The translations under genes and the position numbers were made by a program. A stretch of DNA of 64,000 nt from Sphaerolaimus hirsutus (taxonomy: Eukaryota; Nematoda; Chromadorea; Monhysterida; Sphaerolaimidae): NCBI GenBank assembly GCA_964036195.1, contig CAXIWS010000675.1, positions 1 through 64,000 of the forward strand. Reading direction: 5' to 3'. Positions within the stretch are counted from its first letter, which is position 1. Every line of letters begins with the position of its first letter. Positions 12,108-59,243 of this stretch are shown in pieces. The notes beneath the pieces are model-generated. The model worked only from the letters and a program-made list of their open reading frames with translations, was not told the origin of the DNA and ran no database searches.

Positions 12108-15100
12108 ATGGGAAACGTCTGCAAGAAAAAGCCAAAAAACGACGTTATCGAGCCGGAGCCAAACCAGGATGCAAACATCCCCGAAATTCGTATAGACTCG
12201 CCAGTGTCAGACCAGGTGACAGTCCCAGACCCTGTAAAATGTCAAATCTCATGCTCAAAAGTCATGGAAAATGCCCTGCAAGTGGCTACCGAGTTGTCAT
12301 TTTGCAGGACATTTTCCATGACTTTTGACACTTTGCATGACATTTGACATTTTACAGCGCATTTCACAGGGTCTGGGACTGCCCACAGGGGGATGTTCCT
12401 TCAGGTAAGGTACCCGAAAACTCGACCTAGAAAAAGTGACCAGTTTATTCAAAATCCCATTAAATAATCATCTTCACCGCGCAGAAAACCCGGAAGAAAA
12501 CGATTTAGAAATACCAAGAGAAGAGGATTTAAAAGCGAGCGACAGTGAAGACAACCTAAAAAATAACGACGACAACTATGGTAAGATCCCAACGTGTCTA
12601 AATAACTACCTATAAACATAGGAACAACACACTTTGTAACGTGCACTGCCAAGTAACTTGTAACTATAAGATAAACTTTAAACAGTTCACTGGAATGGGC
12701 CCACACAAACTACATAGTTGACACTAAAATTCGTGTCAACTGAATTCAACGAGTTTAGAAAAATTATGTGATTTCAAATTTCTATGTGAGAGAGTGTAGT
12801 AAATTTTATATCGTGACACTGAATTTTCACTGTTAAATGTGATGCTTTTAATATTATTGTGTTATTTAGTTCACATTCAGTTGACACGAACTTTCGATGT
12901 CAACTAGTATGTGCGGGCGGGCCCAATGTGCCTGCGTGCGATTATCGCCCATACAATTTAAAAACAACAAGTTCTCCCGTAGACCGACCACAATCACCAC
13001 CAAAAACAGATGATGACGAAAATAGTTTTGACGAAAATGATGAGCCCCAAATGGGAGATTCCGAACATGAAAATGAAAGGAGTCCAATACCCAAGGTGCC
13101 AATCCCAGACCCTGTAAAAAGCCGTGTAAAATGTCAAATGTCATGCAAAGTGTCAAAAGTAATGGAAAATGCCCTGCAAAATGGCAACAACCGATTTGCC
13201 ATTTTGCAGGGCATTTTCCATAACTATTGACACTTTGCATGACATTTGACATTTTACACGGCTTTTTACAAGGTCTGGGAGTGACCCCAGGCTACCTACA
13301 GACCTGTTGACAAACCCGACAAGCCTAGGAGAGTCTCTGCACGTGCGTTTGTGAAAAATTGGTTTGAAAGTGAATGTCATTTGCATCAAAGGTCTAGAAG
13401 GGGGAGGGGTCAACCCCACAAAGGCTTCGTAGAGTGATATTCCCCTTTTGAGTTAAACACCTTGAAAAGTCTATTATATTCATGACCCCGCGAACCCTGA
13501 CCCAAATTTGTTTGCAGTTAGTTACCTATCTGTCTGAAGGAGTGATTTTCCTATCTAAATATCTGAACGCCATTGACTCTAAATTTACAAGATCCCTGAT
13601 TTACATGATAATAATTGAGATTTACATTCAATTTAAGTCATACAGTGCCTGAATTTGTAGAAAGGTAACAACATATTTATCTCATTTTCACAGGAGGTCA
13701 GATCAGTATGATCCGGCTAAGTTCTTTTCTTGTGCAAGCTTACAAAATGCTTCCATGTGCCCATTTGCTGTAGTTTACCTAAACCAGCTTCCCATCCGAG
13801 TTCATTACTGTTTCCTGTCCGTTTTGTGTTTCCAATGCAAGTTAATCCGTGGAACCAGTGCACATTGTATACAACAATAAAAACCTTGTTTGCATTACAC
13901 CTGGGGGCGATTTATGCGCTGCATTTGCGGTGCCCCCAGACAGGTTTAGTCTGCCTAAGTTCTGGTGTAGTCAGGGAATAATTGAAATAACTCTGGGAGT
14001 TGATCAAGTATACATCAAGCCACATAGCCCAGGAAACAGTGTCCAATAAAGGGACTAGGATGGATGAAAGCACTCAGCTCAGCACTTGTCACCTTTGCCG
14101 CCTGCTTAAAAACAGCTAAACGTCAAGCAATCGAATATTCAACCACCAAAGTCTTAGCACACCATCCAAACTTCGCAGAGGAGCTATGGATGTACGACCA
14201 AAGTCCGTCAGAGGAGAGCGGCGGGGAAATGCCGCCGCAGCCAGTACATTTGTCGCCGGGCAGACCGCCCCCACCAAAAACTTACACCAGGTGTCACTTC
14301 CAGACCTTGTCAAATGCACTGTAAAATGTCAAGTGTCATGCAAAGTTGTCAAAAAGTCATGTAGAATGCCCCCTGCAAAACAGCAAACATTCGTTGCCAT
14401 TTCCCAGGTAATTTTACATGACTTTAGACACTTTACATGACATTTGACATTTTACAGGGCATTTTACAGTTTCTGGGAGTCTCCCTCCCCAGCAGCGAGG
14501 ATGAAAATAAGGACGCCCCCTTGAATCCCATGAAGGTTGGCAACATCGTGAAGTACAACTTGTTGGACAAATATGACGTGTTCGCCAATATGAGACCGGA
14601 GAATGTGAGTTACATTTGTGTATCCAATGCATGGCTTGGTAGCATGCAAAATATCCTTATGTATGCTTAGTTGTCCAGAGGGATAGCAAAATCATGGGTT
14701 TCAGACTGACTCGAATCGTATTTTTGTTGTTTCTTTTTTTGTTGCGCGAAAAGCCGGCAATTTCTAAAAAATTTTTTAAAAACATTGGCGGTTGTTTTCA
14801 GTGGTTTTGCAGCATTTTTGTGTCCCAATTATACATATAAAAAATGCATGATCATTCCGACAGGTTTCTGAAACATCAAAGTATAAAATATCACTCTAAA
14901 TGTATTCAACTTCTTTTCTCAGTTTGTTTGAGCAATTCCCTCTTCGAAGTCGAGAAGGTTCAACCAATTACAAAAATAACATAATAATGGACTTTTTAAC
15001 AAAAAACTTGCTTTTTACCAACTTTTCGCCCATATTAGAAACAGCTATAAAAAAGTGATTTTTCCATCCCTAGATGTCCAGAGAACATTATTTCTCTCCG

Positions 15101-18100
15101 TTTTTCTTATTTTCCCGAATTCTGTTCCATTTATTTCAATTGTTTACAACCCAAAAAGAAAGACCGCAAGAACTGGCGCAAGGCAATGAAACACCTGAAA
15201 AATCAAGACAAACACGAAGTTTCACAACCAGAGGAAAATAAGGAGGCCCCGTTGAATCCCATGAAGACTGGCAATATAGTGAAGTACAGCCTCTTGGACA
15301 AATATAATATTTTCGGAAATATGAGACCGGAAAATGTGAGTTTGGCTAGTGTGTTTGGTTTGGATTTGAAAATTATCTTTTATGTGTGTCTATTTGTTCA
15401 AATAACATGATTTCTTTATTTTTTTCTCACTTTTCCGAATTCTCTTTTTATTTGGTTCAACGTTTGCAACCCGAAAAGCGAGGTCGCCAAAGGTGGCACT
15501 GGGCTATGAAACAGCTGAAAAAGCGACAACGCACTTTACAACCGGTGAAAATGCAAGTTGAAAGTGACTTCATAAAGCACAAAATGTTGGCTTCAGTAGG
15601 CGTCCAGGTGCCAGTCCCAGACCCTGTAAAAAGCCCTGTAAAATGTCAAATGTCATACAATGTGTCAAAAGTCATGGAAAATGCCCTTCAAAATGGCAAC
15701 CGAGTTGCCAATATTACAGGGCATTTTCCATGACTTTTGACACTTTTTATGACATTTGACATTTTACAGGGTTTGGGACTGCCCCCCCCAGGGTACGAAA
15801 AGCAATGTGAGTGGCGGCGGGATTCGTTTTCGGGGTGTTAAGGTGCAAACACATACATTTTTCGGGCTTGTTCCGGGTGAAGAAAGGTTAGGCAAAAAAA
15901 TTGCAGAATCTATGTGAAAATAGCTAAAAAATAATATACTAGCAGATAGCTGGCCGATTTGAGTAGCAGTATCATAGATAAATAGATAGGTATCTGAGCC
16001 GCCCCCGGGATAAATAAATAGATAGCTGGATTGTTTTGGGGGCCCACAACTACCCCTTTAGACCCCTTAATTATGTATTTTTCTAACACTGGCATGATAA
16101 GAATAATTTGTAATGAAGCACAGCGGGATTGAGACCAGTTTGCGCAATTTTTTATGTACAATCGCTATACAAAGTAAACGCAAACGTACGCAAATCCCAC
16201 TGACAAAACTACATTTTGTTGTCGTTCTTTTTCATGCACCATTTTTTTCTAATCACACCACATATCCAATCATTTGATCACGTAACCTAACCAATTAATG
16301 TGTGCAATGAACCCTGACATTTTACACATTTTAACACAAAACAACGTTTTCAAAATTTTCCGAACACACCATCCCTAATCAAATCAAAACTACTCACAGC
16401 GATGGCGTAAAGCACTGAAACTATGGAAAGCAAAACGTCATGAGTTCGAAAACTCGAGCCAGCCAGAAACAGACCCGAGCCCACTGAACACCATGAAAAC
16501 GGGTAATATTGTGAAATATGCCCTGCTGGACAAATACAGCGTGTTCAATAAAATGCAACCCGACAATGTTGGCTTAATTAAAGACCTTTCTTGAGTCATT
16601 TCAACAATCGATGCTAAATTTTCACGGCGCGGCGCAGAAATGGCGCAAGGCATTCAAACTGTGGAAGGCAAAGCGGCACGAGTTGGAGGCGGAGTCAGAG
16701 TGGGTGGACGAAAACGCGCAGTGGAAGCATAACAAAGGTATGTGTCTTGGCACAAAGCCAAGTCAAAATTACCACGCACACCATAACTCAAAATTACATT
16801 CGATTTTCATGTGCATAACCACACAACAGAAAACGGGCCCCGACTGAAAACCCTATTTACCGGCGCTATATTTTCGAGCGTAGTGGCCAACAATGCCAAA
16901 ACACATTCCATTGTAGGCAAAAATGGCAACGACACGGAAACGACCAGCTTGTCGAACGTGATTCCAAATGATCCCAAACACAGAGGTTAGATAATAGACA
17001 ATTTCGTCGATTACGGTATACTCGGCGGACCGCAGAGTATGCGTCCAAAATTACTTATGTCTTAGACGATAACGCGCAACCAGGATACTTATGCACGCAC
17101 TTTCACAAAAAAAGAATATTATCAAAAAAGCGGGACGAAAGCTTTTCCAGAAATGTTTTTCTTTTTTATTATCAACAATTTTTATTTTATTAACAATGAT
17201 GTCATGGACTGTTTCCTTCAGAAAAATGCATAGCATGTGGTCCGCGGAGTACAGCCTAATTCCTACTCCAACTTCATCACGTCACTCCAAAAACCCAGAC
17301 TCCGCTCTCCGTGACACGGAGACGCAAACGGAGAAACGCGGCAAGAAACTGCGCCGGCGGCGCGCGCGGGCTACTCAAACCAAAGCCAAGAACAGCGGCA
17401 GCGTTGGCGCCAGTGGCAGCTCGACGCGCATTCCAAAAAGCCCCGGTGCCACTCCAAGACCTGTAAAAGCCCTGTCAAGTGTCAGATGTCATGCAAAGTG
17501 TCAAAAGTCATGGAAAATGCCCTGCAAAATGGCAAACGTACGTTTGTCATTTTGCAGGTCATTTTCCATGACTTTTGACACTTTGCATGACATTTGACAC
17601 TTCACAGGGCTTTTTATAGGGTCTCAGAGTGCCCCCAGGCCCCGGCGGGGGTTTAACACCCGATTCTGCCCTAGGACACAAATCGAGGAAAAAAGGCGAA
17701 AAGGGGTCGCAGGGCTCGTCGCCGCGGCAGCGCAAGTCTAGGAGCAGGGACTCGCGCAGGACGATCAGCACGCCCGCCGCGCCCAGGGGTTCGTTTCAGA
17801 CATCTTCATCAAAAACTTGTTAGTATGCACGCACAGTTTTCAAGTCCACTGACGTCCACTGAATTTTTAAGTCCGCATAGAATGAAATCTGAGTGCAAAA
17901 AATTATGTAAAAGTTCGCTCCTGTAAAATGAATTCACGTCTAACGTCGTCAATTTTAGAAAAATTGCATATGTGAGTAACGTTTGGCAGGCTGCCAACAT
18001 AAACTGACGCGTCCACAGTATCAAGTGACCAGAATATATACAAAACACACTACCAATACATACTCCCTTTATTCCGGTAGATCGCTCCATGAGTAGAAGT

Positions 18101-18521
18101 GTCAGCCGCGATGACAGAAAGCCTTCCAGAAAATCGCCAGAATCCGTAAGTTTCTCAAAAGCATTGAACAAGTCACAGTACCCCAAAAATTCACCCTTTT
18201 CAATCACAAAAGCTCGGCAAAAGTCCCAAAAAGACGCCAAAAAGGGTCCGAAAACCACCACCGACACCAATGGAAAGTAGTACAAGCACAGACGAGATGG
18301 AATATGAAGAACACGCGCCGAAAAGAAAGGGCGGAAATAAGCCGAAAATTTTGAGGCCCGACAAACGGCCGGCCTACAAAAGGAGATTTGACCCGGCAAA
18401 TGCGCAAACTGTTGGCTCGGATTTTGGAATTTGGCAGTTTTATATACCATATTTATATCGTGAAAGTGATTTAGTAAAGATATTGACTTTTTTGCAGGTG
18501 CGAGCACCGTGGCAGCCGTGA
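12108..18521 (+). CDS. Basic protein with repeated exons and possible N-terminal acylation, nested in an RLR intron
   Basis: Exons: 12108-12215, 12389-12404, 12485-12580, 12983-13095, 13291-~13390 (end unresolved), ~14065-14290, 14493-14604, 15159-15335, 15479-15607, 15792-15806, 16400-16567, 16638-16737, 16830-16985, 17299-17445, 17639-17818, 18081-18145, 18213-18410, 18498-18521. Phases agree at all junctions except around the unresolved fifth and sixth exons. The protein starts MGNVCKKK, fitting N-myristoylation on Gly2 with palmitoylation on Cys5. An acidic, Pro-rich region follows. The middle has tandemly duplicated exons encoding variants of a basic helix (RWRKALKLWKAKRHE) and of PLNPMKTGNIVKYSLLDKY. 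The C-terminus is Ser/Arg/Lys-rich. Five introns are introners, and two flank exons of only 16 and 15 nt. It lies entirely within a 9.7-kb RLR intron on the opposite strand. No family is recognised; a membrane-attached scaffold is only a guess. Confidence 0.7.
12216..12388 (+). repeat. Introner 1 (173 bp, complete intron, phase 0)
   Basis: Begins GTGACAGTCCCAGACCCTGT and ends AGGGTCTGGGACTGCCCACAG, with near-perfect hairpin arms (AAAGTCATGGAAAATG and its inverse). Its ends are exactly the splice donor and acceptor between coding exons of the 12.1-18.5 kb gene. Confidence 0.92.
12696..12922. repeat. Foldback element with GTCAACT-type ends
   Basis: TGGGCCCACACA and a run containing AGTTGACACTAAAATTCG are inverted at the right end (TTGACACGAACTTTCG, GTGCGGGCGGGCCCA). 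The same GGGCCCACACGCTAGTTGACAT-like theme recurs at 29.5, 48.6 and 52.1 kb. Intronic. Confidence 0.75.
13096..13290 (+). repeat. Introner 2 (195 bp, complete intron, phase 0)
   Basis: Begins GTGCCAATCCCAGACCCTGT and ends GGTCTGGGAGTGACCCCAG. The arms include GTCAAATGTCATGCAAAGTG and its exact inverse. The flanking exons join in frame (...SPIPK / ATYRP...). Confidence 0.92.
14291..14492 (+). repeat. Introner 3 (202 bp, complete intron, phase 2)
   Basis: Begins GTGTCACTTCCAGACCTTGT and ends TTTCTGGGAGTCTCCCTCCCCAG. It is more diverged than the other copies, and the arms remain recognisable (AAATGTCAAGTGTCATGCAA). It splits an AGC serine codon. Confidence 0.88.
15608..15791 (+). repeat. Introner 4 (184 bp, complete intron, phase 0)
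   Basis: Begins GTGCCAGTCCCAGACCCTGT and ends GGGTTTGGGACTGCCCCCCCCAG with the shared hairpin arms. It is followed by a 15-nt exon (GTKSN) and a GTGAGT donor. Confidence 0.92.
17446..17638 (+). repeat. Introner 5 (193 bp, complete intron, phase 1)
   Basis: Begins GTGCCACTCCAAGACCTGTA and ends GGGTCTCAGAGTGCCCCCAG. GCCCCGG occurs on both sides (17440-17446 and 17639-17645), the clearest candidate target-site duplication in the family. Confidence 0.92.
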
Positions 18522-18649
18522 TCGCGTGCAATTGTAAATATATGTGATCAATATATTTTTGCATCTGAGCGCATAGATTCTTATACGGGAGAGTTTTATG
18601 AAATATATGTAAATATTGAAGTGTTCTTTTCGGAAACTACTGGTGCAGC

Positions 18650-19164
18650 CAGGGGTCTCCTAGGGGGGGGGGGCTGGGGGGGGGGGCTGCCCCCCCCCCA
18701 AATCGGCCAGCTATCTATCTATCCCGGAGGCCGCTCAGCTATCTATCTATCCCGAGGCAAAAATTTTCGCTACTACCCCAAAAGACCCCCCCCCCCCAAA
18801 TCGCTCAGCTATCTATCTATCTGGAGTGGTTTTTGAGAAATTTTGCCCCAATTTTCGCTCAAAATCACTAATGTTCGCACCTTTTTATAGTTTTTCACCT
18901 TCAAAATCGTGCTTTCCGGCTATATACATGGTTATATACCTATTTTTAGCCATTTTATACCTACTTTTGGCTACTTTTAAGTGATTATTAGCGATTTTTT
19001 CCCCCTTTCTGCCTTCTTGACCTTGAAAAAGCGTATATATTGTGCCCCCGCCAGCCCCCCCCAAGCCCCCCCCCCCAGAAAAGTTTTCCAGCTATCTATC
19101 CCTCCGGAGGAGCGATTTGCTATCCATCCAGCCCCCGCGAGGGCCAAAATCCTGGAGACCCCTG
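18650..19164. mobile_element. hAT-type MITE (CAGGGGTCTCC family) with perfect 8-bp TSD
   Basis: Termini CAGGGGTCTCC and GGAGACCCCTG. The flanks GGTGCAGC at 18642-18649 and 19165-19172 are a perfect 8-bp duplication. The interior has AGCTATCTATCTATCC near both ends. Related fragments lie at 9.7, 10.8, 21.2-21.7, 24.7, 27.5 and 36.6 kb. Confidence 0.9.
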
Positions 19165-19349
19165 GGTGCAGCGCGTTTTCTAATCAAATGCTGGGGGAAA
19201 ATAAATGAGTATATGAAATATGAAAATACTTATTTAAAATCCATAAACGTCGAGCAGACCGAGAATTGGCCAGCCGAAACGTCGTTATTTTTAATACCTC
19301 CCCAATAAAAAAATCACGTTTAAAAACAATCCCCCTAAACCCAACACAC

Positions 19350-21048
19350 CTCATTCTGCATCCAAGTTTGACCCATGGGCACGATCCTCGCGTGGATTAT
19401 GCTCCTGAGCAGCAACTGTTTGTGCATGTTGCCCAACTCGCGGTCGGCCAGCGTGCCCGGCAGCGCCAGCAGCACGCAGCGCGAGTCGTGCGCGCGCGCC
19501 CGCCCTTGAGTAGATTGATTTGTGAGTTGTTTGGGGGAAGTTATGGTGAACAGAAATGAGTTCTCGAATTTCTATTTTATACAGAAAAAGTTTTTGATTT
19601 TCTAGTTGGGTAAAATATAGATATTTAGATTTTTCCTCCTGGATTCAGACTTTTTGAATTGTTGGACGATTTTGAAAATGTTTTGAAATGACTTGAAATG
19701 TTCTCGCCGCAGACACATTTTCCCCTTTTTTCCACCATGCTACAATGCATCCATGCGAAATCCGAGTATTTGTATTCCGTGTTGGCATTGTATAATAAAT
19801 GTAAATACATGCATTTTTAACCAATTAAACAAATCAAAACACAGGACCAAATTGGATCGCTGGCCGCTCGCAAAAACGCGCTTAAAATTAGAAAATGATT
19901 TTGCATTTACTACTGAATGATAATATAACAACAATGGTAAAATATCAAAATTTTCGACTTTTTTGGGGAAAAATATGATTTCCCCCCCCCCCCGTTCCAT
20001 GAATCCAAATGGCAACAGTAACCATCCCAAAAAAGCAGCACGACTCACCTTGTCTCTGGGTCCTAGCAATTTCATTCGAGACCACATTGTACACCACGAT
20101 GAGGCTGCACTGCGGAATGTCGAGGCCCTCCTCAGCCACCGAAGTAGCCACCAGAATCTTGGCTTGGCCTCGTCTGAACATGGCCAAATTCCGCAGCATG
20201 GCGCTCGTGTTCGCGCTGGGGACGGAGTCTAGCCTCGTTGACGTCGATCGGGTACCTTAGTTTCGGGTGTGAATGAATAAAACCGTGACACAGTGCCCAG
20301 ATTAAATAAGGCCTAGGAATTTAAGCTTATTAAAGGCTTATTTAATTAAAAACACTTAAGGTGCCCTATGCTCGCGAAAGCGCATGAAATTTTAGGGCCC
20401 AACGCGCACAATTTTATCCGCCTACTGCCTGCCAAACGATGATTATGATAAATTCTTCATTTTGCGGTAAACGGTATAAGACACGGTAGATTTCTAAAAC
20501 GGTACGGTAAATTTTCCCATTTTGCGGTACGGTACGGTCAATGCCGCCACCCTGCTTAATTGAGATGGGGCATCCTACTCGCTCCTCACATTCTCATCGA
20601 ATTTAAGGTAAGGGATCAGGGATAAAATATCTATGTCAAAACGTACTAATCAACGGCACCGCTGCGACCCCATCGACGGCCGGGCCCTCTGACATCCCTT
20701 CCATGCCAAAACTGACGTCGTTCAAATCCTCAGCGAGCAATTTCACCATCTGCCTGGTCCTGGCGAACACGATCACCCTGGGGGCATTCACAGACCCTGT
20801 AAAATTCCCTGTCAAATGTCATGCAAAGCGGCGAACGTACGTTTGCCATTTTGCAGGGCATTTTACATGACTTTTTACACTTTGCATGACATTTGACAGG
20901 GCATTTTACAGGGTCTGGGATTGGCACCTGGATTCTGGTTTCTCGACGAAATGGGCGCGCAAAATATCCACGAGCTTGTCGCACAGCTCGGTGCGCTGCA
21001 TCAGGGCCGACCGGTCGGCGTTCAAGTTGCTTGCCAGGAGAAACGTGT
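19350..21048 (-). CDS. RIG-I-like receptor, helicase core (motifs IV-VI)
   Basis: Exons 21048-20928, 20777-20647, 20228-20049 and 19504-19350, phases 2, 1, 1, 0. The first ends in LVDILRAHFVEKPES and the second begins RVIVFARTRQMVKLL, together the motif IV region of RLRs (compare IIFTKTRQS). The third has FRRGQAKILVATSVAEEGLD, the motif V signature, then VVSNEIARTQRQG. The fourth starts GRARAHDSRCVLLALPG, motif VI with both arginine fingers, and continues into the pincer (MHKQLLLRSII). NEIA...GRARA separates this from Dicer and FANCM helicases. Upstream phase 1 fits the insertion-domain exons at 38.5-40.0 kb, and downstream phase 0 fits the pincer exon at 9649. The DExD half (motifs I-III) and CARDs were not found in the window. 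Confidence 0.9.
20778..20927 (-). repeat. Introner 6 (150 bp, complete intron in RLR, minus strand, phase 2)
   Basis: On the minus strand it begins GTGCCAATCCCAGACCCTGT and ends GGGTCTGTGAATGCCCCCAG. It splits the arginine codon just before VIVFARTRQ of helicase motif IV. Removing exactly these bases restores the conserved protein, which fixes both ends. Confidence 0.95.
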
Positions 21049-21149
21049 CTGGGGGTGGGGGGGGGGGGGCTATTTAGGTGCGTGTTGAGTGAATTGCAAT
21101 TAGGGTTTAAATGGGATCCCGAATCCCGATAATTTTCGGGATTTTACGA

Positions 21150-21655
21150 TCCTGGGGCTGGGGGAGGGGGGCTGGGGGGAGGCGGCCCCCCCAACTCGGC
21201 CAGCTAGGTATCTATCTACCCGGAGATCGCTCAGCTATCTATCTACCCCGAGGCAATTTTTTGGCTACCACCCCCTGAGACCCCCCCCCCCCAAATCGCT
21301 CAGCTATCTACCTATCTGGAGCGATTTTTTGGGAAATTTTACCCCAATTTTCGCTTAAAATCGCTAATTTTTGCTCCGTTTTATAGTTTTTAACCTTCAA
21401 AATCGTCATTTTTGGCTATATACATGGTTTTATAGCTATTTTTAGCCATTTTTAACCTGTTTTTGCTACTTCTAACCTATTTTTAGCGATTTTTCGCCCT
21501 TTCTGCATTCTATACCTTGAAAAAGGAATATATTTTGCCCCCGACAGCCCCCACCCAAGCCCCCCCTCAGAAAATTTTTCAGCTATCTATCCCTCCGAAG
21601 GAACGATTTGCTATCTATCCAGCCCCCGCGAGGGTCAAAATCTTGGAGACCCCTG
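21150..21655. repeat. Relative of the CAGGGGTCTCC hAT MITE
   Basis: Contains GGGCTGGGGG, then AGCTATCTATCTACCC, AATCGCTCAGCTATC and, at the right end, TTGGAGACCCCTG, as in the 18650-19164 element. The left terminus is embedded in a short GGGATCCCG-type fragment, so its exact end is unclear. Confidence 0.7.
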
Positions 21656-21797
21656 AATGACTCTTTTCTTTTGCAGTTCATTTTCCATAACGCGCCAGTG
21701 ACTTTTCGCTGTTTTTTCTTCTCTCTGGAAATCAAATAATTATGTAGGGCAATAAATGCTGAGCTTACTTCCACATGATGTTTTCGACAGTCATCGC

Positions 21798-22340: not shown

Positions 22341-22362
22341 GTGTTATTTGTAATTACGCTTT

Positions 22363-26700: not shown

Positions 26701-29700
26701 CCCATGTTTTTTAAGTAAAAAAAACGGTTGAAAAAACATCTGCCATGCCATCACTACACTGGATATCCTTTTGACGCACTTCTTAATTCCACTCACATCC
26801 ACAACCACCAATTAAAATGTAAATCTTCCATAATAACTACAGGCTGCAGCCAACTCGACAGTTCCATGCACGTAGCTCAATACTCAGAAAGATCAAATAG
26901 TCAAAGTGTAATGTCTGGCAGTATAGCCAACTTTACATGTACCAACCATAACAACGCAGCCCTGAGCGGCTACAGGACTAGCGGTGTACTAGCATGCAAT
27001 CAGGTGCTACTCCCAGACCCTGTCAAATGCCCTGAAAAATGTCAAATGTCATGCAAAGTGTCAAAAGTCATGGAAAATGCCCTACAAAATGGCAACCGAG
27101 TTGTCATTTTGGAAAACATTTTCCGTGACTTTTGAGACTGTGCATGACATTTGACATTTTATAGGGTCTGGGAGTGACCCCAGGGTTCCTGGTCAGGGGA
27201 GCAGTGCCAATTGTTGGTAGGGTGTCAAAATAGTCAGCGGCCAGAAAACGGCAATGGCAAAATTTTGCACTGGAAATCGGAATAGGGAGAATCGGGGGTT
27301 TAGTAAAGGAGAGGGGGGATTAGGGGGTTACTCAAAATCGCCATTTCACATGTTCCATTCCTTATTTTCAGCTATTTGGGTACTATTTATGCTTATCTAC
27401 TTATTTTCCACCTACTTTTAGCGATTTTTTTATCTTTTCTTTCTCCTATATTTACCTTGGAAAGCCCCGCGACCCCCCCCCCCGAAATTTTTTTCCAGCT
27501 ATCGATCCCTCCAGAGGAGCGATTTACTATCTATATTAACCCCCGCGGGGGTTCAAATCAACAAAACCCCTGGGGAGAATGAAGTGCTGGAAAACAGGAA
27601 AACGAAGGCAAAAAATTCCAAACGCATTTGCACACATGAATAACAATAAACTGATAAGCACTTCAGTAAGCCCAATTCAGGCCTGCCTACAAATTGCACA
27701 CCAAACAATTTGAATCTTTACCATCAGCAGTGGAATATAAATATGTCATTCAAGTGAGAAGTTAGTAAGAACTAAGAAGTTAAAGTAAGTAAAAAGTTAA
27801 AAGACAAATCGCAAATGGCAATAAAATGCAACAAAAAGAAAAAAGAAAAAATGAATTAGGATATTTGGATATCAGATGAATTCAGAAACCGCGCATGGAA
27901 AGCAGGAAATTTGACACCCTAACTGCAGCGAAATAGTAAGTTGATATGGGGTTACTATGGATTCAATATTTTTCTATAATTCTCCATTTACCGTATTACC
28001 TCGAGATACCCCCAGGGGGTTGATTTTTTCGGCAGCAAATTTTTAGGGGGGGGGCTTCAATTCAAGGGGGGCTGATTCGATGGGTTCTATTATTTCACCA
28101 GAAATTTTGTGAAATTCCACATACTCAGACATAAAAAATCTAACAATCACATAGACGTAAATATGTAATGTGTTTATAGACAGAAATATTTCTAACTGTA
28201 TATGCACATAAACCCTGCCCTAACGTCACTCAGTCTTAAGGTTTCGACGTGTGTTCTGCATCATACACATCACAAACTTTGGTGTTTGTCGTGTACATTC
28301 TATTTACACTCAAATTGGGTGGCGGTAGTTCGAAGGGGGGTTTATGATTTCCCCTACAAAATATTAGGAAAGGTGGGTTTATTCAAGGGGGATCAATTCG
28401 GAGTCATACGGTATATTGCAGGGACGTAGCCAGGATTTTTGAGCGGGGGGGGGGGCGGATTGTATACGGAGCTCGGCGAATGGGGGGGGCGGCGAGCCCC
28501 CCCCCCTAAATTTGACCCCTGTGGTAAAGGAATGGCCCCCATTCGTAGGCGCGACGCCATTGGCGTTGGCGCCGAATAGTGCTGTACTTGTATGTATTTT
28601 ACATACATATACAGCGACGGGGGCGAATTTTCAGTGCTTTTTAGATCCTAAACCACAGGTATAACTAAAATATACTGTGCGGCGCCGAAATGCGCGCTTG
28701 CGCGCAAAATTTTTCCGGACTGGCGAAAAAATCGCTTTACGGAAGCACCATTTCGGGTATATTTTCTTGTCCGACCCGGGAAGGGGGGTCCGACCCGGGA
28801 AGGGGGGGCCCCCCCCCCCGCCCCCCCCCCCCCTGGCTACGTCCTTGGTATATTGAAATGCCATGGGCGGGAAATCGCGGATAATCAACATGTAAAAGTC
28901 TATAAAACATACAGAGGTGTGGATATTTCAACCAATGCAAGGCGGATGGCAAGAATGGGGTCCAGGTGCCCGCTCCGCAAATTGAGAAGTGAGAAGTAAA
29001 ACGGCAAAAGCGAAGTGAATTGAGAAGTAAAATGACAAAGTGAAGAGAAATTGCGTTGTGTTTATAATTTTTTTCACTTCGCTGTTGCCAATTTACTTGC
29101 CATTTCACCTCGCTTTTGCCAATTTATTTTGCTTTTGCTATTTCACTTCTCGCTTCTCAATTTGCGGAAGTGGCCCCAGATATACCACCCAGGATAATTG
29201 AATCGGATATATTTGATGCTCTTTCGCTTGGCCATTATTCACAGGCGCAATGTCCAATTGTGGAGATGATAGATTACATGGTCTACTTCGTATTACGTAA
29301 GTTCAAAAACGGCCCCACGCACGCTAGTTGAAAACGCTACACTTTCCACTCTAATAAATCTGTTTTAAAAACATATTTCGTTCACCAGAATGGATCATTT
29401 TATTCTCCGTCAACTGTAATTGACGCACTGCACATCCCGATAAACATAAATACGTAACAAAGTTTATCAGTTTTAGATATTTTGATTGTCAACTAGCGTG
29501 CGAACCGAATATCTTCCAGTCTGCGAGTACGGCCCCACACGCGCTAGTTGACATTCACACCAAATGTCAACTGGTTCCGTTCCCAATTCAAAGCTTGCGT
29601 TTGAACGTCATTCATCGGCTTATCAGCAAGCTTTGAATCGGCATCGGCACCAGTTGACATTTGGTGTTGATGTGAACTAGCGTGTGGGCCCTACGCGACC

Positions 29701-29890: not shown

Positions 29891-29954
29891 GTGACTTGGG
29901 TTCAAACGGGATCCCGATCCTGAATCCCAAGAAATTTCGGGATTTTGTTCTCCC

Positions 29955-31260: not shown

Positions 31261-31415
31261 ACAAATTTTTCCATTACTTTGCAGAAGTTGCATGCAGTAG
31301 GTATTGTTAGCTAGTTGCAAGTGTTAAGTTACAATTATTGATATGAATGGTTTGCATTGTCAGTGGAAGTATGATACTACTAGTGTGCTGGCACATTTGT
31401 AAAAATAACATCCAA

Positions 31416-31814
31416 GGTGTTAATTGTCATGAAAAATGTAAAGTAGAGTCAATTGACATCTCAAATGTCAAGCAAAGTGTCAATTAACATGACAAATGTC
31501 ATGCAAATTATAAATTGTGTATCCAAATATTATGTTTTGGTATCCAAATATTACATTTTTGGTATCCAAATCTTATGTTTTTGTATACAAACGTTCACAT
31601 AAGATTTGATACAAAAACAACATCAAGATTTGGATACAAAACATAAGATTTGCATACAATTTGCTTGACAGTTGCCACTTTAATTTATATTTGTCATGAC
31701 AATTGACACCTTACTTCACATTTTTCATGACAATTGACACTTTGCATGACATTTCATATGACATTTGACATTTCATATGACATTTGACACTTTATAGGGC
31801 TTGGGACTGCCCCA
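31416..31814 (+). repeat. Large introner-like variant (~400 bp)
   Basis: Starts GTGTTAATTGTCATG after CCAAG and ends ATAGGGCTTGGGACTGCCCCAG, the introner 3' terminus. The arms contain TTGACATCTCAAATGTC and inverses, with a central AT-rich inverted repeat (ATCCAAATATTATGTTTTGG and related). It lies in the last lectin-gene intron; whether it is spliced by itself is unknown. Confidence 0.6.
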
Positions 31815-32633
31815 GTTCCGCAAATAAACAGGTTGAACCCCAAGCAACACAATAAATTTTTTTACAAAAAAGATGACTTTTTATTCAATTTTTACAAAAA
31901 TATGAATTTGTATACAATTTTACAAAAATTTGAATTTTAATACAATTTTTATTTTTATTTTGAAATTTTTCATTTTATTTTATTTTATTTTTTTTCTTAA
32001 ATTTTCCATTTTATTTTTATTTTTTCCTGAGATTTTGCCAACCCTGGTCATGTACATGTGCCGCTAAGACCTCGCCCACTGGTCATGTACACCTCCATAC
32101 ATGACTATCGAGTCTACATGACCGGCGGGTCTACGCGACCTGCGAGTCCAAATGACTAGCGGGTTTACATACAGTGTCAAACACAGTGACTAAGCACGGT
32201 GTCTTCACAGTTGGCCAAACCTTTAGGGAAAAAAACCTGTAGTTAAGCAATTGCATCGCATTACCACAAAGGGGAGCAACCAATGATAGTTTTGCCATTT
32301 TTAAGCTGCTTGATCAAAAAATGTAATTGTTATTATTAGAACATGGTTTTAACCGCCTTATTTTAAAAAAATGTGTAAAAAACAACAGAAGATGGGTATT
32401 GAATTTAAATTTTTTCTGTACTTATGCATTAGGTATTTCGCAAGTGCGCAATTTGACATAACAGAGCATTCCCTAGAACATAAATAGTAGGGATTCTTAT
32501 GCGTATCGTAAGAATTTGCATTTTTAAATGCGTTTTCTTTAAAAACGGCAAAAACATCAGGCCATTCCCATGCATTTTCCAAAATTGAAGGCAAAAAAAT
32601 TTGATACCCAACAAATGTACGCATATCACGCAG

Positions 32634-34253: not shown

Positions 34254-34490
34254 TCACGCAGTTACAATCCGAAAACTGGCGTAACTGGCACTCTTCCAAA
34301 TCTGCACGAGCCACGTACTTGGCTGACACTTTGCACATTCCGAAGGCGTCTATACTACATTGGGGGTTCTAGATACGATTCGACCAACGCTACAGCATAT
34401 CATGGCGTTACAGGTTATGCTCAATAAATAAAGTAGTATAAGTAGTAAAAATGTTCTTCCAATTGGAAATTTGTCCAAACTGCCTACTAC

Positions 34491-34912
34491 TAGGGATGGC
34501 AGACGTTCTTTTACCGTCGTTAAAAAAAAGTTATGTAATATACAGCCAATGTGCTCCCACATAGCTTTTCTGATAACCTTACTTAAGCACTATTCCATGC
34601 AAAACTTGAAGTCACGGCTTGAAGTCACGAACATTCGACAAAAGGCAATATACATAACAAGTCGACAAAAAAATGGATAATGTTGACAGAAATCACTGCT
34701 TATAATACTATCACATGGCTCCACAACCATTCAATGGCTATTTTGATTACCACAAAGTACTGGCAATTGTCTGATGTACCTGTATTGCTGACTCAAAATC
34801 ATGTTGGGAGCTTTAGAAATGTTTTAAATTGAAAAAACAAAAAATGTTTTGAATTTAAAAAAAATGTTGTTTTTTTAAACAGGGTCGTTAAAAAAGTTTT
34901 TTGCCATCCCTA
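34491..34912. repeat. TAGGGATGGC AT-rich inverted-repeat element
   Basis: TAGGGATGGCAGACGTTC at the left and TTTTTGCCATCCCTA at the right. The body matches the 11.0 and 30.1 kb copies in opposite orientation. The flanks match at only five of eight positions. Confidence 0.7.
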
Positions 34913-34915
34913 CCT

Positions 34916-35585
34916 ACCGTATTTTTTCGAAATACCCCCCCCCCCTCGTTTGACCCCCCCCTCTCGGGACCACTATGAAACAATCACCCCCCCCCCCCAA
35001 ATTGAGTGTAAAGGGAACGTACATGACAAATACTGCAGTTTGTGTTCTGTGTACTGCAGAACACACGTTAAAACAATGTCGGTGTCACGTTAGAACAGTG
35101 TACATACCATCTATACTCCGGTTACTTTACACCTTGCACGCGTGGTTCCCGCTGGAAGTGCGCCAATGATGGTTAACGCGTGCTAGTTTCAGAAAAAGAT
35201 GACAAAATTGATTGTTGTTATAATGTTTTGTTCATTAATGTATTCACATCGATGAATTTTTCCATCTTTTTACGTAAATCGCATGATTTGAATATCATTG
35301 GCACGCTTCCAACACGAGACATAAATCAGTGCGAGGGCAGAGTATCGTGTACGCCGAGTATACATACTAATATTAGTCTACAGAACCTTATGAAATGGCG
35401 GTTTTTGTTGCATTTTTCGACGTCTGCAAACGTTTCAGACGACTATTTCGTACTTGGTTTTCAAAAATTTTCTTGTGAAATAATACCCCCCCCTCGAAAT
35501 ACCCCCCCCCCTCGTTTAACCCCCCCCCCCTCTCGGGACCACTATGAAACAATCACCTCCGGGGGGTATTTCGAGGAAATACGGT
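34916..35585. repeat. ACCGTATTT-type G/C-run inverted-repeat element
   Basis: ACCGTATTTTTTCGAAATAC to TCGAGGAAATACGGT. Two internal copies of CTCGGGACCACTATGAAACA flank the middle, so it may be a composite of two insertions. Confidence 0.75.
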
Positions 35586-36736
35586 ACTACCAGTTTACAA
35601 TAGAAATTTTCAACATTGATCAATCAGTTTCAAACACATTTGAGTTGAATGAAACACATTTGAGTAGCGGAGTGAAAAATGCATTTCACTTTTTCATGGA
35701 CATTTTTCATGGTCGGGTTTTTAAATGCCTTGATCAGTAACTGAGCGACACCGAATCCACAAATATCTGGAATTGATTGGCATTTGTAACAACGTCCAAA
35801 TAACAAGTAAATCCGTCAAATGCAGACGTGAAATCGATGGGTCCGGAAATGAGCAGTTGGAGAGATGAACCGCCAATCAGTCACGGCAGATCGTTTATTC
35901 AAAATTGCCGCAATTACCATGGAAAATTGTGTGGATGGAGCAAATGTTTTTCCCGACGTGTTTGTCGATCGTGCAATGGCGAAAATTGTTGATGATAAGG
36001 AACGTTTACCACAACGAACATACTGAATTGAATTTACACATCTAGGACCTCCAGGGGGGGGGGGGTTATTAAGTTGGCACTTGACTTTTTAACTGATTTT
36101 TTTAATCACAGGGTGGAAACTGATTTTAATTTTAAAAATAGTTTTTTTTAATCAAGGCGCTTAAAAACTTGATTTTTTTCCAACCGTAGGTGTTCACTAT
36201 TACCTCTGCTGATGGAAAATTTGACACCGAACATGTAAAACCCCAATGAAAACAACCCCAAGCTTAAATTAATGTTTACTCGCTTTGCGCGAATTAATCA
36301 CTCAAGGGAAAAACATTTGAACCGTCCCCCTGGTACCTCTGTGGAGGAATAACCGACAAAACATGCGAAACGTAATTTCAAAAAGCCCAACAAATCTTGA
36401 TTGTGGCACCGGGTACAAAAGTCATGCACAGTGTGCAAAACCATTCAGGAGTAAATGCTTGAAAGATGCACCGATTTTATCTTCAACGATGAGAGCCCAA
36501 AGAGCAACCAGATTTTGTCGGGAGGCAGGGTGATGACTTTTGATCCTGTGCCGCTTGGCATGTAACACCGTTCGGCATGTAGACAGCGGATCAGGAGTCT
36601 CCATGGTTTTGACCATCGTGGGAGCTTGAAAGATTGCAAATCTATCCTCCGGAGGGATAGATAGCTGAAAATTTTTCTGGGGTCTCGCTGGGCAAAATAT
36701 TTTGGTATGATATAAACTGGTGGCACATATAAATGA

Positions 36737-37590
36737 AAAACCCACAAAACCATGTTTTAAAAACCCCACATGCAAGCTGTCAGGCTGTCATCTTGTTTGA
36801 GGGTGCCCCCAAGTATTTATTACATATACCCAAGGGGGACACCCTCAGGCCACCCTTGGTTTTGAAAATAAATTTTTTTCATGTTTTTTTTTCCCCAGAA
36901 AATATAAATATAAAATCCATACATATTTTTGTTCAGGTCAGAATTTGATTTATTTATAAAATTGGTTGGGGACGGTCTACACCACTAATTTTATTTTGAC
37001 ATAGGAGGTGGTAACTTCCTGCACTTTTCGACCCCCTCACAACCTTCACAAATCCTGCACCAAAATATTGCTGAAGATCAAATGCCACTTTTGTCATGGC
37101 ATTTTCACCCATGGTGCAGCCGTGGGTTGCTCCTGACACTGAACAACCTGATTCTGGGGACCATGTGCCCCATGAAACTATCGGGGCAGTTGAGCATGAA
37201 ATTTCCCCAACATATGTTTTGCTCAAATCATGTTTATTGGTTTGATCTTCAGCAAAATTTTGGTGTGAGGCTTGTGTGGGTTGTGAGGGGGTTGAAAAGT
37301 TGCAGGATGTTACCTTCTCTTATGCCAAGAAAAATTAGTGGCCTAAACCGTCCTCAACCAATTTTATAAATAAATCAAATTCCGTCCCGAACAAAACTTT
37401 GTATGGATTTTCCATTTATATTTTCCAGAAAAAAAAACACAAAAAAATTATTTTCAAAACCAAGGGTGGCCTGAGGGGGTGCCACCTTGGGTTTTATAGT
37501 AAATACTTGGGGGCACCCTCACACAAAAGATGACAGTCAGACAGCTTGCATGTGGGGGTTTTAAAACATAGTTTCTTGAAGTTTTGTGAA
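36737..37590. repeat. Long foldback element, arms ~350 bp
   Basis: The left arm contains AACCCCACATGCAAGCTGTC, GGGTGCCCCCAAGTATTTA and CAGGCCACCCTTGGTTTTGA; the right arm carries their inverses (TGGGGGTTTTAAAAC, AAATACTTGGGGGCACCCTC, CCAAGGGTGGCCTGAGG). The inner part (ATTGCTGAAGATCAAA, GACCCCCTCACAACC) is also mirrored. The loop is under 100 bp. Confidence 0.88.
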
Positions 37591-38004
37591 TTTTCCATTT
37601 TCCATTCCAATTTCCACTAGTTTATATGGCAAAATTTACAAAATGAGGCCAAATTTAGCTATTTTGGGTAAAGGTTGAGAAAAAAAGTAGAGACTATTAG
37701 CCTAGGGATAGAAAGATATTAGCCGAGCAGAGCTCCCCTGAGAGCCCGCAATGGGTCTACATGCCAAGCGGGTTTACATGCCAAGCGGCCTACGCCATTA
37801 TTTTTGTTTCTGTAATATCTGTAGGAATATTTGGTAGGTCACCATCATATGGAAACACTAATTGTCTGGAAAGTCGATAACGTTTTTGTCTTTAACATTT
37901 TTAGTCTTAAGTCGATAACAAAGTTTTAGTCGATCATTTAAAAAAAATATGTAGTAAAAACTTGAGTAAATTATTCGCGTCATCGCTTATATTTATCAGC
38001 GCAG

Positions 38005-38251
38005 CCGCAGCACAATGAAACACCCCCCAAACCTATTCAGATTCGACGGAACAGCGTGGACTCTGCTGCCGAATGGACTGGTGCGCGTCGTCCAGGGTGG
38101 CCCAATTGTCGTCTTACGGGACACACTGTACTACTTGCCGAGCTCGGTCAATGTGATACAAAAGCTGGTGAATGAAAGCAGCAATGAGTGGGAGAGAACT
38201 ACGGACTCACTCGCTATGGCAGCGAGCTATTCGAGGGCGATTGAAGTGTGA
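38005..38251 (+). CDS. Probable last exon of the lectin gene (kelch-like)
   Basis: Opens after TATCAGCGCAG and enters in phase 2, matching the phase-2 end of the exon at 29890. It reads FRFDGTAWTLLPNGLVRV and VVLRDTLYYLPSS and ends at a stop. Joined to the preceding ...CGGGTNRVPSDKC it gives a pattern like one to two kelch blades (GG, then a W a few residues after the aromatic). The intron would be 8.1 kb and packed with repeats. Without transcript data the join is inference, and it could instead be a separate gene fragment. Confidence 0.5.
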
Positions 38252-38475
38252 CGCTGTTGCTTAATGGTTTAGACTAGGGTTGGTTTTGTGTTGGTATCAC
38301 GTCGATTTTATATTTTCACAATTTTTCGATATCGGTATCGATTCGATATTTACTTAATGTGAAAAATGTTTGATAGTTGACTAGATACGTGCCAACCGGT
38401 TCGTACTAAATATAAGCAATAGTATAAATATATTTGTTGACAGACCGGCTAGATTTTTTTAAACAGTGCACCTAC

Positions 38476-39975
38476 CTTTGTAGGCAGCTTTCATCGTTTC
38501 GTAGAGAATTCCAGCCAACTTGCTTGACGATCTCCGAGCATCAGCGCGCTCAAATAACAGCTTCAAGCCTGTGTCGTACCGTAATAGTTCGAATACCTCC
38601 ATCGATGAGATATATTATAATATATTTGTGATATATTTATGTAGCGTATTTGCTCGTATAATTCCCCTGGGGAAAAATTATATCGCTAGACTTTTTCGAG
38701 GGTAAATGATTCAAGGGCGGGAATTATTATTTTATCAATATTTCGAAAATTTCTATCAAGTCATTCCATAAAACATGCTTTATTCACAGAATAAGACACC
38801 ATTTATGTTCGAATTGCTTAAAAAACATGATCATATACTAGGGTTCAAACGATATGACTTTTCGATATCGATATTCGATATTCGATATTTTTTTCTGAAA
38901 CTCGATATTCGATATCGATACGTTATGGAACCTCGATATCGATATTCGATATTGAAAAGTGGTCGATATTCGATATTCGATATTGCGATTTTCTTTTGGT
39001 ATAGCAAGGCATATTTCAAGTGGCATATTGTATTTTCATCTGGTTGCACACATGGTTAATCATCTCTTTACTGAAATGTGAATGGTACAAGTGATTTTAA
39101 CAAGGTTTACAATAGTCAAAAGTAAAAAATGGGAGAGAAACATGATGAATCAAAGTGTATCAGACAAATAACAATTGGTAGATATTACAGTTCATACTCA
39201 TAACCTAATTGCTTAAGGGCATGTTGCAAAAAATAGCATATCAGCACTTTCTAGCTTCAAATTTAGCACTCCAACAAAAATGACATTATAAATACTGTAC
39301 TTTTACTCATCAAATACAATACTATAAGCAAATCAGATCAATCATAAATATCTCAAAATGAAAATGATATTAATTTAGGGACACAATACAGGTTCGATAT
39401 ATCGAAAAAATGGTCGATATTCGATATCGATATTCGATATTTTTTCAAAATTTTCGATATCGATATTCGATATTTTTTCAAATTTTTCGATATCGATATT
39501 CGATATGAAAAAATGGTCGATATCCGATACGATATATCGTTTGAACCCTATCATATACCTTTGGAGAGGGGAATTATTCAACGGGGGATTTTGTCCCCAT
39601 CCATCTAACAGAGGAAATTATTTCAGGGGAAAATTTTTTCAAGGGGGATTATAAATACAAGCAATACGGTACATATAAACAGTGATCACAAAATATCTCA
39701 ACAGTGTTCATAACGTTTACGTGCATATGAATAGTGATATTCTAATAATCCAACCGTGTAAATATATATAAATACTCACCAATAAAAGCGGGCAGGTGGG
39801 CCATCAAATCAAGCGCCAATGCGCACAGACGCAAAAAGTTGAGCGCAATTTTCAACTCTAGACAAATATCCGACACATTGTGAGAAGTTATTTGATTTCC
39901 ATTGTCGGACGGGCGCGAATTTGGCATTTTCGGCAGCACATCCCTCAGCAGCGAGGACAACCAAGAAATGTAGCG
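38476..39975 (-). CDS. RIG-I-like receptor, helicase insertion (Hel2i) domain exons
   Basis: Two exons, 39975-39780 and 38568-38476, phases 0, 1 and 1. The first reads RYISWLSSLLRDVLPKMPNS and ICLELKIALNFLRLCALALD; the second reads LKLLFERADARRSSSKLAGI. The layout (aromatic-W start, long helix, then helices leading to NADRSALMQRTELCDKLVDI) fits the RLR Hel2i bundle that precedes motif IV. The exit phase (1) matches the entry phase of the exon at 21048. The sequence similarity is modest, so phase, strand and order carry most of the weight. The ATPase half should lie upstream but was not found up to 64 kb. Confidence 0.6.
38640..39670. repeat. Diverged CGTATT-type element hosting the GATATC element
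   Basis: Left GCGTATTTGCTCGTATAATT, right TTATAAATACAAGCAATACGGT, with GGGGAATTATTCAACGGG-type words inside. Interrupted at 38839-39550. Confidence 0.6.
38839..39550. mobile_element. TAGGGTTCAAACG hAT-like MITE with GATATC/GATATTC repeats
   Basis: Begins TAGGGTTCAAACGATATGAC and ends ATATATCGTTTGAACCCTA. The perfect 8-bp duplication TCATATAC lies at 38831-38838 and 39551-39558. The ends are tandem GATATCGATATTCGATATTC-type repeats in inverted orientation. Confidence 0.93.
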
Positions 39976-40007
39976 CTGCGAGAAATGATCGAGATCGAAT
40001 GTGTAAA

Positions 40008-43000
40008 ATGACCGACCTGCTGGGCAGCGGGGGCGCCTCCCTAGCGGACGAGCTGGCCGGCCTGACGGCCGAGCCGCGCAGCAACCAGCAGAGCGCCATG
40101 CAGCGCGGCGGCAGCGGCGCCGGGGCCTATGGATTGGGACTGGGCACGCCCGAGTATGCGGCTACGGATGATAATGATGAGGGGGTTGCTTGAGCACCGA
40201 CTAGCTAGTTGACATGGCAAATTTTTGACAACTGAATGCCAACAAAATGTCCAATGTCATGCAAAGTATCAGAAGTCATGCAAAATGTTAAATTTTCATT
40301 GACTCTAATTTTATTGGTGCTTGGGTATTTTGCATTTGTCACTTTGTCTGACATTGGACATTAGACAGGGTCTGGGGTGGCCTCGGTCCCTGCTGTCACC
40401 TTTCAGGAACAAAGTTTTTCGAGTGTGAGTAGTTGTTAGGTAGGCAGAGCGCCCACCCCCCTAAATCATTAGAATCATGCATTTTCACGCACGCGATTAA
40501 AACATGCGCTTAATGTTTGTATATTTTCACTCCCCTAATAATCACTCATTGTAACAATAAAAACTGTCCACATAGTGCATAAAATATTACTTTAGCGTAC
40601 ACTTTTTTTTAGCACATTCTAATAACAAAATCCGTTAGTTTAAAAAAACAAAGCTTGCCCATTTTTGCGCGTCCGCTTTTCTTATCGGGTTTTTATTGAC
40701 ATTTTCTATTTCCTTCGCCTGCATATTCGTTTTCCCGATGATTTTTACTATCTAAATTTTCTATTCATTGAACCGCTTTTTTTCTACATTTTCCCTGCCT
40801 TATTTTTAGGTTTATTTCCCATGCTTAGTTTTTATTCCACACTGCGTAAGTTTTCTTTTTGCTTTACCCTCTGCATAAGTTGTCTATTTTTATTGTCCCT
40901 ATCTCTCGAGCCCAATCACGATACTGAAAAATATCCCCACCCAATCCCGAAAAAAATACCCCCATCCTAATCCCGAACCCAAAAAAATGCCCTCGACCCC
41001 AATCGCGATACCGAAAAATACCCCCACCCAAATCCCAATGCCGAAAAAAATACCCCGATCCTAATCCCAAACCCCAAAAAATACCCTCGACCCCAATCGC
41101 GATCCCGGAATAAATACCCCCAATTTCAAACCCAAAAAAAATACCCAATTCCATATAAATGACCCGATTGTCAAAAATACTCCGATTCCAAAAATTATCT
41201 CGATATTAAGAAAATACCTGATCCTGAAAAAATAACCCGAGCCCGAATCCCCAACCCCAAAATCCCGATTCTGAAAAGTCAATCCTGTTTGAACCCCAGT
41301 GTTAAGTATTTGTTTTTTAAATAGGAATAAATCACAATTTATTGATATAATTGTTTTATTATTATTTATGCGCAAAAATTCAAATATGTCAGATTATTTG
41401 AAATAACTAAAATTTATATGAAAAAACCAAATTCAGATAAAAAAGCTTAAATTTTTTCACTTTTCACTCAATAACAACTTCTTCGGAACATTCTGGCGTT
41501 TCAACAATTTCCATCTGAATATCCATATCACTGACGCCATTTTCATTTTCCTTGTAGGCTTTGTCACAGGACAAGACTGGAGAAGTTTTTGTAGCCTCCA
41601 TCATTTCCATTTCTTTTTTGCGCATTTCTCTGTCCCTTTTTATGTTTTCAAGCATTTCCTGGGAACAGTCCCAGACCGTGTCAAGTGACAAGTGTCAACT
41701 GTTATTGAAGATGTCAACTATAAAAATTTATGTCAATTTTTATCGCATGTAAAGTGTAAATTGTCATAATGTGTAAAATAGAGAATCATAAAATTGTGAT
41801 TGACATCTTCAATAATAGTTGACACTTGTCATTTTACAGGGTCTGGGATTGAAACCCGGTATTCTTGACGTGCCAGTTTTAATGCCTCATTTTCGGCTTG
41901 AATATATTGATAAACTTCAACATTACTTTGATCTGAAGAAGTAATTATCACTTTTGGATGGATTTTTTTAATTTTATCGACAATGTAGCAGCGTTCGATC
42001 ACAACTTTGATTTCCTTCAATTTAAAATCATCTCTAGACATGTAGTAACTGCACTTGATCAGATCAGCCATTTTTGTATCTGAAAAAAGTTGTGGCAAAA
42101 TTGAAAAAAACCTTTTAATGTGATTAAAAACATATACTGAAACAGATCAAAAATATCAGATAAAGGTCATTGCCTTATCTTATTTCACATCATTAAAGCG
42201 AGGCAAGTGTTTTCCATTTAGATTTCTATCTAATAATTCACCAATGTGTTTCACATTTATTGCACTATTTTGTTCTGCAGTAAGTTGATAATTTGTCTTA
42301 AGTTTTTTCAATAGATGTTGATTTAAATCTTGTTTGCATTTAAAATTGATTTTTATAATTGATAAGATGTCGACCATGTTTTATTCAATTGAATGACACA
42401 TTTCCAATATAATTTTTTGCTCCCCCATTCACAAGCCAGTTGACATCTACACCAATGTCAACTGTTTTCTATATAAATTCAAAGCATGCTCACGAGTAAC
42501 ACTACAGTTTGTATCGTATTTGCACATTGCATGGACTACAATTTTTAACACTGTATCTCTAGTTGCAATATTGTTCAACAAATTGTGAATTGGGGTAGGA
42601 ATAAGTTGACATTTACTGTCGATGTCAACTGACTTGTTAACGGGGGAGCAAAAAATTATATTGGAAATGTGTCATTCCATTAAATGAAACATGGTAAAAA
42701 TTTATCTAATTTTTTATCAAATCTAAAATCTGAAGGTGTTTACAGTTTTAGATTTTTATCAGTTTTGGAAAATTCAGCCGCTTAGTTCATTTAAATTCCC
42801 AGTTAACATAAGTTTTCAATCAGTGTGCATTATTTTCTGGATTGTAATGTTTTCAATTTATAATTTGCAGGGACCGAATCTACACGCTTTGGAGACTATT
42901 TAAATTTTAATTTTCTATCTACTGAAATGATTCAGGAACCCCCATCCGACATGTTGCCCGACAACAACGTGGGCTTCAACATCAAGAACGTGTCCAGTGA

Positions 43001-59219: not shown

Positions 59220-59243
59220 GTTCCACTGGATTTGTTGCTGTGA

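Follow-up and report, generated by a model that had tools for sequence, protein, structure and literature searches.

Introner-like elements at the locus

The window analysed here, 64,000 nucleotides from the forward-strand start of contig CAXIWS010000675.1 of the nematode Sphaerolaimus hirsutus, is part of the assembly contig labelled C566 in a genome of 348 Mb (C1, C2, C13 and so on denote other contigs). It holds a Rab/Ras-family gene, a retroelement, and eight short hairpin elements whose ends look like splice sites. We propose that these eight belong to a family of miniature inverted-repeat transposable elements (MITEs) that would act as introners, that is, as mobile elements which create introns where they land.

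A first-pass annotation made from the letters alone had already read them as introners, and its coordinates and strands were correct in 8/8 cases, with lengths of 150-202 nt (Table 1). All eight start with GT (seven GTG, one GTT) and finish with CAG, in agreement with the donor- and acceptor-type borders it had predicted, and the base after this CAG is G in 7/8. As to the ends that the copies were said to share, the GTG-type start stands, but the terminal CAG turned out to lie beyond the element, which stops at ..TGCCCC, and to be the downstream half of a 3-bp target duplication. The near-perfect hairpin interior is well borne out in the one window copy that was folded together with shuffles (13096-13290, -143.9 kcal/mol vs a shuffle mean of -42.5, z -25).

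Removal of each of the eight copies leaves at least one frame open through the junction. Insertion in phases 0, 1 and 2 had been claimed; phases 0 and 2 hold, with open frames at several copies, and phase 1 comes down to one open frame, at 17446. The count of four host genes likewise comes from open frames as we read them: Pfam recognises the Rab gene at the window start, but the joined peptides round 14291, 20778 and 27004 gave zero Pfam matches at E <= 0.01. The host gene of the copy at 20778..20927, for which Pfam gave no match, we take from its motifs to be a RIG-I-like helicase. The copy at 12216 recurs, with the same intron and flanks, at three clustered places on C13 (19.73-19.82 Mb, L002-L004).

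A family profile was built from 44 copies (hits merged, E <= 0.01). In the window it yields 17 merged hits, of which 7 reach >=100 bits and some are weaker relatives absent from the first list; 200 kb taken from two arbitrary places in the genome (L041-L060) yield 19, of which 6 reach >=100 bits.

Table 1. Members and relatives of the family in the window, with predicted splice borders (TSD, target-site duplication)
Feature	Position	Strand	Remark
Introner copy, GT-AG	12216..12388	+	element 12216-12385, TSD copy CAG 12386-12388
Introner copy, GT-AG	13096..13290	+	exon-side TSD is AAG
Introner copy, GT-AG	14291..14492	+	joined exons without Pfam match
Introner copy, GT-AG	15608..15791	+	C-tract before CAG lengthened
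Introner copy, GT-AG	17446..17638	+	exon-side TSD is CCG
Introner copy, GT-AG	20778..20927	-	83 aa round the junction without Pfam match
Introner copy, GT-AG	27004..27183	+	sushi-like exon by eye only; no Pfam match
Divergent introner copy (73 bits), GT-AG	41659..41855	-	exon-side TSD is CGG
Older copy inside a larger intron of the Rab/Ras-family gene	210..352	+	profile hit
Degenerate relative with 68-bp tandem array of element interior motif	1026..1607	.	profile hit
Longer degenerate relative, one recognisable terminal inverted repeat (ends ACTGCCCCAG)	31403..31815	.	profile hit
Degenerate copy	40239..40381	.	profile hit

A palindromic element present in thousands of copies

The consensus of 65 aligned copies is a near-perfect palindrome of 189 nt, GTGCCAATCCCAGACCCTGT...ACAGGGTCTGGGACTGCCCC, which folds at -163 kcal/mol. 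It ends GTGCCA...TGCCCC, and similarity between copies extends to both splice borders. The two terminal inverted repeats (TIRs), each read on its own strand, are GTGCCA on the donor side and GGGGCA on the acceptor side; they differ at positions 2 and 4, and a seventh base is variable. Among the 51 copies that were not selected by the donor end, 48 have T as the second base of the donor TIR. The orientation of L001-L040 was assigned by the end carrying GTG (that of L006 by eye). Of eight copies from the random sample, four (in L045, L046, the third of L049, and L058) had their borders shifted by hand by 1-36 nt.

A genome search with the terminal consensus, the check suggested by the first-pass annotation, found the exact donor end GTGCCANTCCCAGACCCTGT 3,755 times. 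CWG (W being A or T) precedes 3,092 of these ends (82%), with 1,657 after CAG, 1,435 after CTG, and 0 for each reversed-pattern control; the two triplet figures count all exact donor ends, genic or otherwise, and not introns, right ends having been seen only in the fetched copies. A search of the viral contigs for a TIR pattern gave no exact match. Mean divergence from the consensus is 7.4% for copies flanked by CAG on both sides (22 copies), 7.6% for those flanked by CTG on both sides (21) and 10.5% for the remaining 22.

Target duplication and a probable NuwaI-type origin

Direct repeats of 2-9 bp were tested in 36 distinct genome copies together with the eight window copies. Outside the TIRs, the 3-bp repeat that scored best is 7 nt from the TCCC/GGGA anchors on both sides and is identical in 27/44 copies; an equal score found 2 nt from the anchors stems from bases of the TIRs themselves, and sub-repeats of 2 bp reach 30. 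When eight copies from the 200-kb sample were added, the flanking triplets were identical in 35/52 copies (23 CAG, 11 CTG, 1 ATG), whereas shuffled triplets matched 18.9 times on average and never above 30 times in 20,000 shuffles. These counts leave out L001, which is a copy from the window, L003 and L004, which share the flanks of L002, and L014, which shares those of L005. Where both triplets are CWG, the middle base is the same in 34/38 copies. The extended target is approximately C-CWG-G, with the outer C at 39/72 and the outer G at 54/72.

According to excerpts of Han et al. (2015, PMC4482050), CWG duplications define NuwaI within the PHIS superfamily, which is related to PIF/Harbinger; NuwaI TIRs usually start with GGG, and the group is known from 16 animal genomes. 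The introner family resembles NuwaI, as those excerpts describe it, in its CWG duplication and in its acceptor-side TIR, which starts with GGG. It differs in its donor-side TIR, which starts with GTG, and in that no transposase gene, nor any Myb/SANT gene (for which no search was made), has been linked to it. The genome contains 163 matches to DDE_Tnp_4 (PF13359, Harbinger-type; for example C7:7932035-7932667), many of which have nearly equal scores and in-frame TGAs resembling introns. A MITE family moved by a NuwaI-type transposase (PHIS, PIF/Harbinger-related) is probably what we are dealing with.

Copies in coding sequence

Open fragments of at least 40 aa abutting a copy were scanned with Pfam (150 of 163 sense fragments and 135 antisense fragments). 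The sense fragments yielded 27 Pfam families, one member each, and the antisense fragments 0. Zinc finger, LIM, CHGN, Ig, ground-like, 7tm, ankyrin, cation efflux, CBS and ASC are among the matches listed. The copies had been described as always oriented with the host gene, and they are indeed in sense orientation wherever a domain is recognised; L072, considered below, may be an exception. ORF length (the length of the open reading frame), used as a coding-strand test, did not separate the strands, the sense frame being longer in 16 and the antisense in 16 of the CAG copies, and in 16 and 9, respectively, of the CTG copies.

CAG copies lie in a LIM protein (L045), with the donor changed to GTGTGT, and in a DEG/ENaC-like gene (L005), where the Pfam match is weak (0.00068) and under the Pfam cut-off. 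Of the 21 copies taken as genic, four have a drifted triplet on the exon side (AAG, CCG, CGG, TTG), whereas the triplet on the intron side is CAG or CTG. Drift on the exon side and not on the intron side is as expected if the intron-side triplet serves as acceptor.

Copies at CTG sites, where the acceptor would be TG, also lie in sense orientation within conserved genes, and removal of GTG...CTG gives homology that runs through the junction. With the copy removed, GCAT aligns to 1fc4 (E 1e-19), VMAT to 8xiu (4.5e-24) and AMPK gamma to 4rer (3.7e-39), each across the junction. OSCP1 matches PF10188 (4.4e-17), and across the junction a DEG/ENaC gene reaches 1.5e-8 and a cation-efflux gene 7.1e-13, the latter with an exon-side CAG and an intron-side CTG. 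In a zinc-finger gene (L033) the C2H2 spacing is, by eye, retained across the CTG copy, and CTG copies occur likewise in one ankyrin gene and one Ig gene. For GCAT and OSCP1 a single locus each was seen in the genome, split by a CTG copy (the other GCAT matches are 39 and 45% identical). The AMPK-gamma gene on C1 has a paralogue on C2, of 83% protein identity, which is uninterrupted where the C1 gene holds the element and has TTG in place of CTG; by this comparison the C2 site is a paralogous empty site. An ordinary neighbouring intron in AMPK gamma is, in our own reading, GT-AG.

The CTG copies in conserved genes thus suggest a large class of GT-TG introns in this genome. We consider it reasonably probable, with appreciable room for error, that such a class exists, that the middle base of the landing triplet alone would set GT-AG against GT-TG, and that the spliceosome would accept both, perhaps aided by the hairpin.

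Proposed mechanism

In the reading that we prefer, to which we give a probability of about 0.77, this is a MITE family acting as an introner: it would land at CWG, bring the GT donor in its own TIR and obtain its acceptor from the duplicated triplet. The earlier proposal of intron gain by a non-autonomous DNA element finds support in the TIRs, the 3-bp TSD, the thousands of copies, the sense orientation wherever a domain is recognised, the conserved proteins restored and the one empty paralogous site. A NuwaI-like transposase would insert the MITE at a CWG triplet, which is duplicated. Insertion in sense orientation would give CWG|GTGCCA...TGCCCC|CWG|, where the spliceosome would find its donor in the TIR (GT) and its acceptor in the second CWG. 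Because the element begins with GTG, its first two bases would be the donor, which is in this way the transposon's own tip; one G-to-T change from the GGG usual in NuwaI may have created it. The acceptor would be the duplicate triplet that follows the C-rich end on the 3' side, CAG making a GT-AG intron and CTG a GT-TG intron. Splicing would take out the element and one triplet, so that the exon is restored with no loss or gain. In the opposite orientation the element would offer GG, and the Pfam scan of the flanks showed no antisense exonic copy with a recognised domain. The hairpin probably sets the two intron ends side by side and conceals internal AGs; those in the right arm (ACAG, some 20 nt from the end) may be unused because they sit in the stem.

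If this is correct, the family offers, in an animal, thousands of copies that share one origin, and the target choice of a transposon would set their splice site. Natural matched sets (the same intron with A or T at -2) make the birth of introns and the strictness of the 3' AG rule directly testable. Should TG prove to serve as acceptor, annotation programs that insist on AG would get many genes of this genome wrong.

Evidence to be weighed, and other explanations

Several observations weigh against the mechanism just proposed. Position 2 of the donor TIR is G in 2/51 copies and A in 1/51. Many copies have no recognised domain alongside, and among ten CAG copies (L082-L091) the two plausible frames, L087 and L091, gave no Pfam match. 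In L072, a 377-nt copy, a cysteine-rich frame is open across the junction on the antisense strand and, if real, would make a GA-AG intron. The single DDE_Tnp_4 element that was read (L061) carried no TIR of the family. In AMPK gamma the intron end is short of one C and the intron-side triplet is shifted by one base, which was allowed for in joining the frames. The same gene, and the reach of some of the searches, also enter into the first alternative below, and downstream AGs enter into the second.

The strongest alternative, which we nevertheless judge unlikely, is that the family acts as an introner at CAG sites only, the exonic CTG copies being harmful insertions that are either heterozygous or sit in dying genes. 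In most eukaryotes TG makes a poor acceptor, and AMPK gamma has a second gene, so that the copy in the first need not be functional. However, CTG copies have diverged to the same degree as CAG copies, CTG is nearly as numerous as CAG genome-wide (1,435 vs 1,657 exact donor ends), and CTG copies are in sense orientation wherever a domain is recognised. They also split the sole GCAT and OSCP1 loci found, although diverged paralogues of these two could have been missed because the queries were only 54 and 48 residues long.

Somewhat less probable again is the splicing of CTG copies as GT-AG introns to the first usable AG downstream in the exon, at the cost of a few residues. Five CTG genes (GCAT, OSCP1, AMPK gamma, DEG/ENaC and the cation-efflux gene) do have an in-frame AG 6-24 nt into the exon, and canonical splicing at the loss of a few conserved residues is conceivable there. 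Such splicing would, however, remove residues that in AMPK gamma and GCAT align gap-free to solved structures. In VMAT the first AG lies about 75 nt into a conserved exon, and that of the zinc-finger gene L033 is out of frame.

Excision of the copies from DNA and not from RNA, in the manner of internal eliminated sequences, is very improbable: the long matching TIRs and a restoration that is exact whatever the triplet would suit it, but orientation is irrelevant to excision, yet domain matches are found on the sense strand only, and the donor TIR has T at position 2 in nearly all copies. Least probable of all are ordinary old introns into which the MITE inserted secondarily, as the Rab-gene copy within its larger intron might suggest, since this is contradicted for the eight window copies and the listed conserved-gene copies by triplets lying on the exon borders, and the AMPK-gamma paralogue is without any intron at the site.

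Other features of the window and of the sampled regions

The Rab/Ras-family gene occupies window positions 2-990 (+), and its exons, joined without the intron, match Pfam Ras (1.9e-29); it is perhaps of Rab44/CRACR2A type. The 68-bp tandem array (1053-1477, 6.3 units) is perhaps a MITE interior becoming a satellite. At 48716-49080 there is a larger inverted repeat, weakly related to the introner family, in which a TGACATTT-like motif occurs. An exon-like stretch is triplicated at 14500-14611, 15231-15342 and 16463-16574 (+), in the region holding five introners; it is unusable as an empty site because homology begins only 7 nt past the junction. On the minus strand, a 1,124-aa open frame at 55869-59243 has a DUF5641 and a Monjiviricetes-type fusion glycoprotein domain and is read as a BEL/Pao-like retroelement that includes an envelope-like part; a relative that is by eye very similar lies on C4 at about 12.046 Mb. 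Used as a taxon marker, the BEL/Pao ORF gave 5 distant hits. COX1, on a 14,754-bp contig, has its best matches at 91 and 82%; the named ones among the 120 matches listed stand at about 68-71% (insects for the most part, with the priapulid Halicryptus as well) and point to an invertebrate, perhaps an ecdysozoan. In the random sample, a 2,402-aa open frame of unassigned nature was seen at L045-L046 (C1, about 10,047,861).

Comparison with known systems

Introners derived from DNA transposons were reportedly the subject of Huff et al. in 2016, and the introns of Fritillaria borealis are said to be of MITE origin. That one splice site of an introner can be supplied by the TSD is already known, and in the excerpted survey of Gozashti et al. 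(2022, PMC9860276) introners occur, among animals and land plants, in two groups, both of them animals. Like the DNA-transposon introners described in those excerpts (Micromonas, Aureococcus, Symbiodinium, Chrysochromulina and others), the present family consists of near-identical multi-copy introns with TIRs and TSDs, in which one splice site would be carried and the other drawn from the TSD, and mRNA length is unchanged in most of the families surveyed (PMC9860276). It differs in its 3-bp CWG TSD as putative acceptor, its full palindrome of 189 nt and its thousands of copies.

GT-TG sites are not new to introners either. The sections available of Verhelst et al. (2013, PMC3879977) give 25 members of IE-B and 6 of IE-D (31 in total) with such sites in Micromonas, besides 34 other introns with TG or CG acceptors, mostly backed by expressed sequence tags. 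The putative GT-TG sites of the new family are alike, but here one family would yield GT-AG or GT-TG depending on which base stands in the middle of the triplet, and its exact CTG donor ends, of which not every one is genic, number 1,435. In human genes, TG acceptors appear as alternative sites (PMC2374985, in extract). The hairpin introners of Amoebophrya, from the portions of PMC7789003 at hand, share inverted repeats that pair the intron ends, short direct repeats at the borders and non-canonical splice sites; they belong to a protist and have many unrelated splice motifs, whereas the present family is a single one, from an animal, with GT and CAG/CTG. Fritillaria borealis is an animal with non-canonical introns tied to intron gain, but its commonest borders, going by extracts of PMC13326754, are AG/AC and AG/AT with YAY triplets.

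Titles and abstracts among the literature matches listed, in which subscription journals are thinly covered, included no CWG/NuwaI introner family. Splice sites supplied by a TSD and GT-TG introners are known; the novelty would lie in a CWG/NuwaI-type introner family in an animal.

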